DNA of 64,000 nucleotides from Gammaproteobacteria bacterium RIFCSPHIGHO2_12_FULL_41_20 (lineage in GTDB: Bacteria; Pseudomonadota; Gammaproteobacteria; DSM-16500). Positions 41,484-45,762 of the stretch are shown piece after piece. Below the pieces are notes generated by a model. That model made no database searches and was not told where the DNA came from. It worked only from the letters and a program-made list of their open reading frames with translations. The stretch spans positions 118,163 to 182,162 of the forward strand of contig MGYC01000038.1 of assembly GCA_001801575.1 (NCBI GenBank). Direction: 5' to 3'. A program made the translations under genes and the position numbers. Position 1 is the first letter of the stretch; each line of letters opens with the position of its first letter.

Positions 41484-44400
41484 TTATGCCCTTACTTGTA
41501 AACAATCCGCTTCCACTGCACGCATTACCCTGCCTGTTCTGCCTGCAAAAAGGCGATAGTAAGTTTGCGGATTACTTTGTTTAGTACATCCTACAGCATG
41601 ATTAAATGGCATTTTTGTTATATTATCCCTAAAAACACTTAGCAAATGTAGCTTGGTCCTTTTTACCTTGTTAGGCAAGCAACTTGAATCTATTTCTGCA
41701 TTCAACTCCTCGATACGCGCATTAATACTTTGCAACCCCGTCTCCGAAATGGTAGCAGCCAAACGTGCAGGAGTAAAATCTATCAGTTTCCTTCCTCTGC
41801 GTTCTGGCAAGATTAATTCATCCAATTTCTTTAATTCAGCGATTAACTGTGTCTCATGAGAATCAATCGCATGGTAAGCGCTAACATCTCTTTTCTTTAC
41901 TTCATCTAAAGCGTCACGTATTGTATAACCTGACTTTCGATAAGCATCGCGCAATTGTGTTAAACCAAAAATAGTATTTTCTAGATTTAATCTATGCATG
42001 ATAACTCGGTCAGCACGTTCTTTCTTTAATTGTGCTAAACGCTCATCAATCAAAGCAAGGATAGAATCTTTAGAAATAACATGATCCTTTTGCTCGTCTG
42101 CATTAATAGAGTGTTGACTACTCGCTAACAAAGAGGTGCGTTCCTCTGTTTCATTCATATCTGCAACACCAGCACCAGCTACTGATGTTTCTTGTAATGG
42201 TTGCGCTACCATGTCAGAAACAGTAGCTGCTTGCTGTTCTTGCCTACGTAAAACTGCATCAGTTTCTTTTATACGTCTCTGCAAAAACTCTACTGCAACT
42301 GCCCTATTTTTTTCATCCACCTTGGATTGGGAAACACGCTCATCAGTAGGTGTCACCAACAAATCATCTGCTAATATCCTGTCTCGCTGCGCCTGTATTG
42401 CGCGTAAGTATGGAAAGCGTTCATCAGGATTAAATTCATAACCGCTATCCTCGATTGCTTGATGAAACCTCTCCAATAAAGAGTGCAAAGAAACGCCATG
42501 CAAACTTAACCTAGTAATATACCCCTCTCGTAAAAAAAACTCTGTCTCAAGCTTATCTGCGAGTAAGTAAATATCCCTGAAAAGTAAATTCACCTTCTGT
42601 AGCGTTGCCAATGTTTCTTCTCTTGCCGCTGTTACCAACAGGTCTTTTACCTGCGTCACATTTAACAAAATTGTAGCCAGCTGAAAAATGTGGCGAACCA
42701 CAAAGGATATTAATTTTGATTTAGCAATCTTATCTTCATTTAACTCTTGCATTGCATCCCGGTTTACTTGCGCAAGAAAACCAAGTGATATATCCACTAT
42801 ATTACGATCTATGGGATCTAAAGAAAATCTTTCAGAAGCATACTGATAAAATTCCTGGAGTTTTTGCATAACATAACTCGCCCTATCAGCACCACCTAAA
42901 CCACTGGCCAGCTCCCCTGCGTGCCGTTGTAAATGTTGCACCACTGGTAATTCCGTCACTACTCGATTCGCTAAAACCGTCAATGCTTCCACTGTGGATT
43001 TTAATCGCCTTGTTATATCCGGTGCAGCTCCTGATATAATTGGATTAGATAAAAGTAATTTAATCGCTTTCGCCAATTGAGCTAGATTATCTGTACACTG
43101 ATCTACTAAATTTATTAATGCAAGAATATTACTCTCTGGTGTTTCATCAGACATTCTAACTCGTGCTTTCTGTCTGCATTTTTCATACTCTTTCTGCAAG
43201 ATTTTTAGCCGTGCGAGAAACTCTTTAGCAAGTTTAAAGGTATTCCCTAGATCTTCTATCCATGAACTAGGCTCTGCAATTGTCGTTACTAACACAGGCC
43301 CAGCACTCCCAGATGAAGGACTAGCTGCAGTACTACCCGTAGCTGTTGAAAAATACCTCAAAAATATTTGCGTATCGATAGCTTTACTAAGCTCAGTTTC
43401 AAGTGCAGATAAATATTCTTGCAGCTCATCTACTATAGAAACAGATGATGAATGTGCCGAACCTGACATGAGTTCTTCAATAATACGCATAGATTTATTA
43501 GCTTGCGTCATTAGCGCATACATAATTTTATTCGTGTCAATACGAGAATCACGATTCTCTATCGGAATTTTGTGTTGCACTATTTGATCTTTAATGGATT
43601 GTATTTTACCCTGTAATCTATCGCGCAGTAATTGCCTTTTTTTATCTGCATGTTTAATCCGCCGTTGTAATGTAGAAAGATTTTCTCTTATATCATTAAT
43701 CAAGCTTCTGAGATGCTCGCTATTTTCTATAAGCTTTTTGCTACTGCTTTTATCACACAACAACTCATCTAAGAGTTTGGCGATATCTCCTCCATCACGC
43801 TCAAGCTCGCCTGTTAAAATCGTAAGGATATTTATCTTCTCTTTTCGGTTAGATTTTTCTGCTTGATAACGCACAAGCTGTGCTTTTACCATCTCCAGAT
43901 TGTCCAGCCGTGTACGCTCACACCATTCCCTTTGGCGTTCTTTATAACGTTGCTCATCTTGCTCCAGCTTTTTTAATTGCGCCTCTCTACTGCGCAATTT
44001 AGCTGCCGCATAAGGAAATGTTTCTACACAAGCAACCGCTAGGTAACCTTCACTCCGCATTCTCATTTCATAACCACGACCCACTCTTTCACACAGTCCC
44101 TTTAATGTCATTAAGCCGGCCTCTGTATGTTTAAAAGGAATCTGCAATGAAACACTTTCCAGCAAAGACCCTTCTTTCAGTGAGTATTCAATTTCTAGTT
44201 GATCTAATAATATGACTACCTCTGATAACTCAGACACAATCATACCTAGAAATGCTAAATCTACTGTACGCACGAAAGGGTCTAATTGAGAAAACAGTTG
44301 CATTCTATTACTATCATCCGACATGACTGTTTCAGCATGATCCACTACTATTTGCAAAAGCCTAGGAGCTATTTGCTCAATTAAACTCGATATTTTCTTC

Positions 44401-44864
44401 GCAACTGCCTGATGCATTTCCTCAAATGTTTTAGGCATTCCCTGCGTATAACTGCCAAGATCTAGCCGCTGAATAGCCTCGAGAAAATCAGGAATACTGA
44501 CAATAAAACTATTTAGCTTATGTACAATATCTTTGGTTGAACCACCTGTTTTATTTGCTTCTGCCATTAAAGCTTGCAATCTTTTAACACTCTCCTGCAA
44601 GTAAACCGCAAAATCTTTTAGATCTGTATCTTCTTCTGATGCTGATTTTTCGGTAAGCGTATTAATATGGCCAATAACATTTTCTAAGAATTTCACAAAA
44701 CCATCTAATTCTTTTTCTACACTTACAAACACAAGTTTTGCGCGGTTTTTAGCACTACTTATATTTTGCCTAAGGAGAAGAAGTTCTTTTATTAACCAAT
44801 GACTTGACTCATCCATTGTGCTAGTCGATGCTGTTGGCTGAGAATCTACAGATTGTCTTTGCAT
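41484..44864 (-). CDS. Large coiled-coil protein of unknown function with an internal duplication
   Basis: The 1126-residue product has no signal peptide, no membrane segment and no domain I recognise. It is helical and charged throughout. Two units about 535-545 residues apart resemble each other: DQLEIEYSLKEG (near 230) with DKLETEFFLREG (near 776), and ETFPYAAAKLRSREAQL (near 281) with DERFPYLRAIQAQRDRI (near 816). A Ser/Thr-rich N-terminus, Ser/Ala linkers near 520 and a basic C-terminus are also visible. The architecture and neighbouring SNARE-like gene suggest a host-directed protein, but that is inference. The start ATG at 44864 follows AAAGG by seven bases. Confidence 0.75.
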   Translation of the reverse strand: MQRQSVDSQPTASTSTMDESSHWLIKELLLLRQNISSAKNRAKLVFVSVEKELDGFVKFLENVIGHINTLTEKSASEEDTDLKDFAVYLQESVKRLQALMAEANKTGGSTKDIVHKLNSFIVSIPDFLEAIQRLDLGSYTQGMPKTFEEMHQAVAKKISSLIEQIAPRLLQIVVDHAETVMSDDSNRMQLFSQLDPFVRTVDLAFLGMIVSELSEVVILLDQLEIEYSLKEGSLLESVSLQIPFKHTEAGLMTLKGLCERVGRGYEMRMRSEGYLAVACVETFPYAAAKLRSREAQLKKLEQDEQRYKERQREWCERTRLDNLEMVKAQLVRYQAEKSNRKEKINILTILTGELERDGGDIAKLLDELLCDKSSSKKLIENSEHLRSLINDIRENLSTLQRRIKHADKKRQLLRDRLQGKIQSIKDQIVQHKIPIENRDSRIDTNKIMYALMTQANKSMRIIEELMSGSAHSSSVSIVDELQEYLSALETELSKAIDTQIFLRYFSTATGSTAASPSSGSAGPVLVTTIAEPSSWIEDLGNTFKLAKEFLARLKILQKEYEKCRQKARVRMSDETPESNILALINLVDQCTDNLAQLAKAIKLLLSNPIISGAAPDITRRLKSTVEALTVLANRVVTELPVVQHLQRHAGELASGLGGADRASYVMQKLQEFYQYASERFSLDPIDRNIVDISLGFLAQVNRDAMQELNEDKIAKSKLISFVVRHIFQLATILLNVTQVKDLLVTAAREETLATLQKVNLLFRDIYLLADKLETEFFLREGYITRLSLHGVSLHSLLERFHQAIEDSGYEFNPDERFPYLRAIQAQRDRILADDLLVTPTDERVSQSKVDEKNRAVAVEFLQRRIKETDAVLRRQEQQAATVSDMVAQPLQETSVAGAGVADMNETEERTSLLASSQHSINADEQKDHVISKDSILALIDERLAQLKKERADRVIMHRLNLENTIFGLTQLRDAYRKSGYTIRDALDEVKKRDVSAYHAIDSHETQLIAELKKLDELILPERRGRKLIDFTPARLAATISETGLQSINARIEELNAEIDSSCLPNKVKRTKLHLLSVFRDNITKMPFNHAVGCTKQSNPQTYYRLFAGRTGRVMRAVEADCLQVRA

Positions 44865-44905: not shown

Positions 44906-45108
44906 GAGAATAAATTATTAAGTAAACATTAAACCTAGAGTTTTTGCGTAACTACTATTTCCACCCTTGATCACCTCTCCCGGAGCGTTTTTTGCGAGTG
45001 GGAAAGGTCGACACGCGTTGTTTGCGTGGCGGGTGAGGGTGCCCAATGTGGCCGCGGGCCAGCCGTGATATGTTGGAAATCAGGAAAACAGTCTGCAACA
45101 ATCCTAAT

Positions 45109-45678
45109 CTACCAGTGACAACACCCATTCAACTTCTTGGCTTCTCTCTTAAAACTCGTTGCTCCATTCGCCAAGTAATCCGTTTTTCTTACTAGCAATT
45201 CTATTCTCTCGCCACGATCAAGTAATTTCTCTAAGTTCTCCAACATGATTTCTTTTATTTCTTGTACTTTCTGCTTAAGTTGCGCAGTAACGATATCTCT
45301 TGCAATATAGTTAAGTGGATTAAGAATAATAGCATCCAATGTCACTGCAAGATTAGGTTTAGAATAAATCGTATGAATATTAGAAAATAAATAAGCTAGC
45401 TCCAACGGCTCTAACTTGTTTCTACTAACAATAGCAATAACGATGCCTTCTGCTGGATAGCGCTTTACGTAATGATATTCATCCTTATATGTAGCGCGGA
45501 AAGTCACATCTTGTTCAGGAGGAAGCGCTTTTAATGTATGTTTCTCTAAATTTTCCAATGGATCGGTACTAAATAATCCACTAAACCCTCCTTTGTTAGG
45601 TGGCGCTTTTTTCTTGAGTTGAAACTGAGGAGAATCTTCTTGGGTATATTCATAAATACCTATTGCATATAATCTCAT
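45109..45678 (-). CDS. Eukaryote-like longin/R-SNARE protein resembling Ykt6
   Basis: The 189-residue protein looks like a complete longin R-SNARE. The start MRLYAIGIYEY and EYHYVKRYPAEGIVIAIVSR fit the longin domain of Ykt6. The C-terminal segment, residues 132-185, aligns without gaps with the Ykt6 SNARE motif: ENLEKLLDRGERIELLVRKT holds Arg155 at the zero layer, and FKREAKKLNGCCHW ends in Cys186-Cys187, matching the Cys-Cys pair that is lipidated in Ykt6. The end CCHW is a CCXX tail rather than a standard CaaX box. No membrane span is present, again as in Ykt6. A strong ribosome binding site, AAGGGGGG, lies seven bases before the ATG. It probably acts on host vesicle fusion after delivery by a secretion system not seen here. 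A chance coiled coil is unlikely given the combined features. Confidence 0.85.
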   Translation of the reverse strand: MRLYAIGIYEYTQEDSPQFQLKKKAPPNKGGFSGLFSTDPLENLEKHTLKALPPEQDVTFRATYKDEYHYVKRYPAEGIVIAIVSRNKLEPLELAYLFSNIHTIYSKPNLAVTLDAIILNPLNYIARDIVTAQLKQKVQEIKEIMLENLEKLLDRGERIELLVRKTDYLANGATSFKREAKKLNGCCHW

Positions 45679-45762
45679 AAAATTACCCCCCTTCTATGCC
45701 AGGAAAAATCGTTATTGCTTCATCGTAAAAAATACTCCTCGCAATGCCAGCTTTTCCTGTAA

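Follow-up and report, generated by a model that had tools for sequence, protein, structure and literature searches.

A bacterial gene whose product follows the Ykt6 plan: R-SNARE motif, predicted longin fold and terminal Cys-Cys pair

SNARE genes in Legionellales have reportedly been described in Current Biology in 2020, and that description may include some of the proteins treated here. Chlamydia IncA is a further point of comparison. A 2014 paper reported "Synaptobrevin/V-snare" proteins of Legionella hackeliae (lha0498) and L. fallonii (lfa3165) (PMC4256840), at odds with the claim of an earlier, sequence-only reading of the DNA studied here that bacterial SNARE mimics are only Q-SNARE-like or motif-like. 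According to two other reports, the Legionella proteins YlfA, YlfB and LegC3 bind VAMP4 (PMC7542358), and mammalian Ykt6 ends in CCAIM, with its second cysteine farnesylated and its first geranylgeranylated by GGT3 (PMC12001115). Here, we analyze a 64,000-nucleotide stretch (the window) of contig MGYC01000038.1 from Gammaproteobacteria bacterium RIFCSPHIGHO2_12_FULL_41_20 and describe one gene in it that encodes a protein of the Ykt6 plan. The coding sequence occupies 45109..45678 on the minus strand and runs from an ATG to a stop through 189 codons, as it had been read before, and its layout is shared by relatives in other genomes.

The R-SNARE (synaptobrevin) motif spans residues 132-184 (45127..45285, minus strand). 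The profile PF00957, which had been forecast to match, did so on these residues with an E-value of 1.1e-16 and a score of 60.8 bits (curated cut-off, 26.4). We set Arg155 (codon 45214..45216, minus strand) as layer zero and used the spacing of synaptobrevin; the layers are then T131, L134, V138, I141, M145, N148 and L152 on one side and I159, L162, T166, L169, A173, F176, A180 and L183 on the other. The heptads are ungapped around the arginine, in agreement with the gap-free motif of the sequence-only reading. The residues that fill these layers are usual for R-SNAREs, including the Asn at -2 and the Phe at +6. The Arg155 column is invariant in a ten-row alignment (A3) and at least 90% conserved in a 28-row alignment (A6). 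When the window protein alone was compared with PDB sequences, it matched Nyv1 (1e-7), VAMP4 (1.1e-6), VAMP7 (6e-6) and Ykt6 (1.2e-5), in every case within the motif. Residues 132-187 aligned with mammalian Ykt6 without a gap and with a score of 104, compared with a mean of 23.9 and a maximum of 51 for 1,000 shuffles of the C-terminal part of the window protein. As the alignment is gap-free, the Cys-Cys pair lies equally far from layer zero in the two proteins. The PF00957 E-value, the layers and the shuffles rule out a generic coiled coil, and it is confirmed that the window protein carries an R-SNARE motif.

Residues 1-120 (45319..45678, minus strand) are predicted to form a longin domain, with the order strand-strand-helix-strand-strand-strand-helix-helix. 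Because the longin profile PF13774 gives no match, this assignment rests on the predicted fold. Structure prediction returned a longin fold, as had been anticipated, and the main strands and helices came in the same order whether folding used the single sequence or six alignment rows. We then compared a profile built from the 28 bacterial proteins of A6 with PDB sequences. Ykt6 came first (E-value 1e-18), aligned over profile positions 1-176, a stretch that starts at the first residue and takes in the Cys-Cys pair. VAMP4 (7.9e-16) and VAMP8 (1.3e-13), whose PDB chains in this ranking are short, followed, and then VAMP7 (9.1e-13) and Sec22b (1.4e-10). Since longin domains are present in the chains of VAMP7 and Sec22b as well, the lead of Ykt6 does not reflect construct length alone.

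Relatives were sought with PF00957 in 36 genomes of the window's order, including the window's own, and matches were found in seven of them, six above the cut-off. A profile made from seven of the proteins matched eight of the 36 genomes, two of them weakly. The clear relatives besides the window protein are in genomes G001 (two genes), G003, G005, G014 and G017. A contig of G001 matches the Aquicella lusitana plasmid NZ_LR699116.1 with full identity over 8,000 bases, and so Aquicella lusitana (Legionellales, Coxiellaceae in the NCBI taxonomy) carries two such genes; the window's genome belongs to the same family as this genome and to a different genus. Six aligned relatives share 20-40% identity with the window protein, with seven invariant columns that include Arg155, Leu162, Leu169 and Phe176. 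In G001 and G014, the SNARE gene lies between the same two flanking genes, presumably tgt and an mgtC-like gene, as does a shorter copy in G005 (L019, 157 amino acids, stopping within the motif); G002 lacks such a gene between this pair. Alignment A3 included L019, as did A5 under the name P0006, from a metagenome bin, whereas A6 left it out. Weak matches that are coiled-coil neighbors (L009 and L020 of G014, L016 of G002) were left out of the alignments, and a 279-residue protein with a bare SNARE stretch (L006 of G022) was dropped after alignment A1.

Two observations concern these loci. L019 and P0007 are longin-SNARE proteins of 156-157 residues from two separate sources, both ending within the SNARE motif. 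Beside the SNARE position in Aquicella-type genomes (L032 6907-8339, L033 5776-7176, L031 7089-7727, L038 499-1011) are small proteins that appear coiled-coil by eye; five of six have clustered cysteines near the C-terminus (e.g., FFSCFPCCGG), and two of six give a weak, sub-cut-off synaptobrevin score.

We expanded the PF00957 search to 369 genomes drawn from the class, of which seven matched, five above the cut-off. The convincing matches are those in the window's own genome, G076, G355 and G140. On reading, the matches in G107, G131 and G174 look like chance, that in G174 still standing just above the cut-off (27.9 bits); we take them to be a sulfate-transporter-like protein, a short coiled coil and a chemotaxis-receptor-like region with in-frame stops. 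As a control, 14 well-known genomes yielded a single match, below the cut-off. Within the order of G076, 27 of 143 genomes matched (24 above the cut-off), and proteins from 21 of the 27 were aligned. These are 171-217 residues long, mostly begin like MKCYALGT, carry the R-SNARE motif and end in, for example, SCWPSCVLI or NSCCILL. Dropped from this set were L054 (a near copy of L053), L058 (505 residues), L063 (no covering open reading frame read), L064 (114 residues) and the longer L059/L066 and L060/L065, which have two SNARE-like stretches; in L059 and L060 (244 and 261 residues), the two stretches are consecutive and the proteins end in CNLI. In six close pairs of relatives from this order, the ratio of nonsynonymous to synonymous substitution rates (dN/dS) was 0.08-0.30, which shows that selection acts on the family at the protein level. 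In the order of G355, eight of 14 genomes matched, seven above the cut-off; the eighth match (L072 of G549) was discounted and presumably resembles GrpE.

Other searches were narrower in yield. A single-sequence search of 5.8 billion proteins matched the window protein only to itself, a search of a protein database with two profiles gave five matches for each, and scans of the contigs of named genomes matched no relative. A tblastn search of 72,556 plasmid records gave no match to the window protein, and a plasmid origin was rejected on this basis.

A 32-row tree places the window's group, eight rows in all, in a single clade (97/94), within which the window protein, L004 and L008 make up an inner clade (100/91). 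For the order of G076, the tree requires two changes, since L045, on a long branch, stands apart. Three eukaryotic rows group together (85/73), and the bacterial rows fall outside this group. Because the tree is midpoint-rooted and has only these three eukaryotic rows, it shows neither the donor nor whether there were one or two captures. The gene was likely acquired from a eukaryote.

The protein ends in CCHW (45112..45123, minus strand), with the codons of Cys186-Cys187 at 45118-45123. This tail is a predicted lipid anchor, on the strength of its register with the Cys-Cys pair of mammalian Ykt6 and of the relatives' tails. The terminal pair noted earlier is borne out, as Cys186 and Cys187 are the only cysteines of the protein and stand in that register; the chance of both falling within the last four residues is 0.0003. 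The lack of a membrane span was likewise upheld, since a Kyte-Doolittle scan over 19 residues showed no transmembrane segment, with a maximum mean of 1.02 and no value above 0 from residue 125 on. Among the seven proteins of the window's order, two have a cysteine four residues from the end, namely the window protein and L008, which ends in CCRYW and thus has the Ykt6 spacing of three residues after the pair. L004 ends in CRC, and the other four have longer tails, two with internal cysteine clusters. In the order of G076, all 21 aligned proteins have a cysteine four residues from the end.

The C-termini of Rab proteins are CXC, CC or CCXX, and GGT2, assisted by an escort protein, geranylgeranylates them (PMC12001115). 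CCHW fits CCXX, CRC fits CXC, and the three proteins with the ends CCHW, CRC and CCRYW are exactly those of the inner clade of the tree. Our guess, by analogy, is that Rab-type enzymes may act on the tails of these three proteins. A wider scenario, tentative and rather doubtful as a whole, is that an ancient capture from a protist host gave Legionellales a Ykt6-type SNARE that they have retained as an R-SNARE of their own. In that case, the window's clade would have rebuilt the CaaX tail into Rab-type double-cysteine ends, to be charged with two lipids by host Rab-type geranylgeranyl transferases and not by farnesyltransferase.

We next consider how such a protein could act. A search that took in some of the Dot/Icm components found three copies of DotI/IcmL above the Pfam cut-off in the window's genome, and DotM/IcmP above its own; DotI/IcmL is present in 31 of the 36 genomes of the order. 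Q-SNARE profiles found nothing above the cut-off in these 36 genomes and one match below it. Taken together, the Dot/Icm genes, the lack of a Q-SNARE above the cut-off in the order, the selection on the family and the kinship to eukaryotic proteins suggest an injected R-SNARE. We therefore favor, as reasonably probable, the reading that this bacterial protein of the Ykt6 plan enters a host cell through Dot/Icm and acts there as a surrogate R-SNARE. After delivery into a eukaryotic host cell by this secretion system, the protein would receive prenyl and/or palmitoyl groups on Cys186 and Cys187 from host enzymes, as Ykt6 does. The longin domain may fold back against the SNARE helix, shielding the lipids until the protein meets a membrane; once open, the helix would join a host Qa-Qb-Qc bundle as its fourth strand, the one that bears the arginine. 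Host vesicles could in this way be drawn to the vacuole of the bacterium, or else to an organelle that it exploits.

Several observations weigh against this reading or parts of it. PF13774, which the sequence-only reading had expected to match, was unmatched in the window protein at E-values up to 10 and was absent among the families listed (25 of 86) for the 28 relatives. The structure model was built from six alignment rows and has a predicted template modeling score (pTM) of 0.57. Foldseek returned no match to the model at E ≤ 0.001, and in a fold comparison Ykt6 was ahead of VAMP7 and Sec22b by less than one Z unit, effectively a tie. The profile of A3 (nine rows from the window's order or group and one from the order of G076) ranked VAMP4 (1.1e-15) over Ykt6 (2.7e-12), and the window protein alone is closest to Nyv1, then VAMP4, in the motif. 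Its tail departs from a strict CC-aaX, with two residues after the pair, one short of Ykt6, and Trp makes an unusual end for a CaaX tail; four of the six aligned relatives from the window's order lack end cysteines. The C-terminal part of DotG in the window's genome scored below its cut-off. The protein is Ykt6-like by plan, and of the earlier claim of a Ykt6-like longin R-SNARE in a bacterium, the motif, the predicted fold, the plan and the preference of the A6 profile for Ykt6 stand. Strict membership of Ykt6 is not settled by the profiles or the tree, given the tie with VAMP7 and Sec22b and the nearness of the window protein to Nyv1.

An unlikely alternative to a surrogate R-SNARE is an inhibitory one, delivered and lipidated in the same way but forming dead-end bundles with host Q-SNAREs that block, for example, lysosome fusion. 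The nearness of the motif to the vacuolar and endosomal R-SNAREs Nyv1, VAMP4 and VAMP7 is in keeping with inhibition, and a lipid-only anchor is generally weaker than a membrane span; however, the layers hold residues typical of working R-SNAREs. The Legionella effector LegC3, suggested to be a SNARE mimic, inhibits yeast vacuole fusion (PMC3577674), whereas Ykt6 itself is anchored by lipid only (PMC12001115).

Far less probable is that a synaptobrevin motif was fused to some unrelated bacterial domain, with convergence or an artefact of prediction behind the longin-like fold and no kinship to Ykt6. The family profile and Ykt6 are colinear all the way from residue 1 to the Cys-Cys pair, the end cysteines are in register with those of Ykt6, and the two ways of folding agree, all of which argue against such a fusion. 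We hold it just as improbable that the protein is not injected and acts inside the bacterium, in the envelope or the cytoplasm. A housekeeping neighborhood with an adjoining cysS-like gene would suit that role, but the relatives found by sequence comprise eukaryotic SNAREs and proteins from a few gammaproteobacterial orders, the 36 genomes hold no Q-SNARE match above the cut-off, and we know of no bacterial SNARE bundles or protein prenylation. Contamination by a eukaryotic fragment, with which the single copy and the self-only match among 5.8 billion proteins would agree, can be dismissed given the bacterial genes on both sides, the open frame of bacterial layout, the grouping with sequences of the window's own order and, above all, the clear relatives that five further genomes of that order contain.

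The surroundings of the gene are bacterial in the parts scanned. A run of six G (45686..45691, minus strand) ends seven bases 5' of the ATG and is a putative ribosome-binding site. Upstream on the same strand is a cysS-like gene, and the genes beyond it presumably correspond to gltX, pdxJ, recO, era and rnc. Nine further open reading frames of the window are bacterial, including glutamate dehydrogenase, uvrC and an AcrB-type pump. The contig that contains the window is 299,866 bases long and belongs to a genome of 2.03 Mb (completeness 100, contamination 0.27). These neighbors, the contig and the genome quality together establish that the SNARE reading frame is a bacterial gene. Just 3' of it is a GC-rich stretch (44940-45105), which is an interspersed repeat because pieces of it recur at 10 other sites in the genome with 84-98% identity. 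On the side away from the cysS-like gene, the SNARE gene adjoins a coiled-coil open reading frame of 1,126 residues (41484-44864, minus strand), which matched no Pfam family above the cut-off and is possibly another effector.

If the favored reading is right, some intracellular bacteria hold a complete fusion strand of host design, including the longin brake and the lipid anchor, and the view of bacterial SNARE mimics as only Q-like or motif-like is corrected. The family would offer some thirty natural versions of the Ykt6 plan, differing in their tails, with which the separate needs for the longin domain and the Cys-Cys tail, and the working of a bacterial R-SNARE in a host fusion complex, could be tested. 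In the literature searched, with most subscription papers outside it, we found no report of a longin R-SNARE in bacteria, of the plan with longin domain and lipid tail, or of the tail switch.

Compared with Ykt6, the window protein has a similar length (189 residues against a 199-residue PDB chain), a predicted longin fold, an R-SNARE motif, no membrane span and the same distance from motif to Cys-Cys pair. It differs in that the motif is about one third identical, the tail is CCHW rather than CC-aaX, and the protein is bacterially encoded. The seven SNARE-motif proteins from the order of G355 (L024, L026 and L067-L071, from seven of 14 genomes) are also bacterial and above the PF00957 cut-off, but they form a second kind, with the motif near the N-terminus (two motifs in L067), a hydrophobic segment after it, no lipid tail and no N-terminal domain, longin or other. 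LseA is likewise a bacterial SNARE mimic, with a C-terminal CAAX motif predicted to be needed for binding to host organelles; unlike the window protein, it is a Legionella Qc-SNARE-like effector related to syntaxin 6, and the accessible part of the report does not mention a longin domain (PMC7542358). YlfA, YlfB and LegC3 (PMC7542358) and the IncA-type proteins of Chlamydia (PMC2265411) are bacterial and act on host SNAREs, but are coiled-coil, Q-SNARE-like proteins, not longin R-SNAREs. Also comparable are lha0498 and lfa3165, bacterial synaptobrevin-domain proteins of which lha0498 appears in the paper's section on horizontal transfer (PMC4256840); they were compared by description only, so overlap with the relatives found here is not established. 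Thus, synaptobrevin-domain proteins of Legionella, the Qc-type LseA with its CAAX motif, and YlfA, YlfB and LegC3 were already known, and what appears to be new is the bacterial plan that joins a longin domain to a lipid tail.
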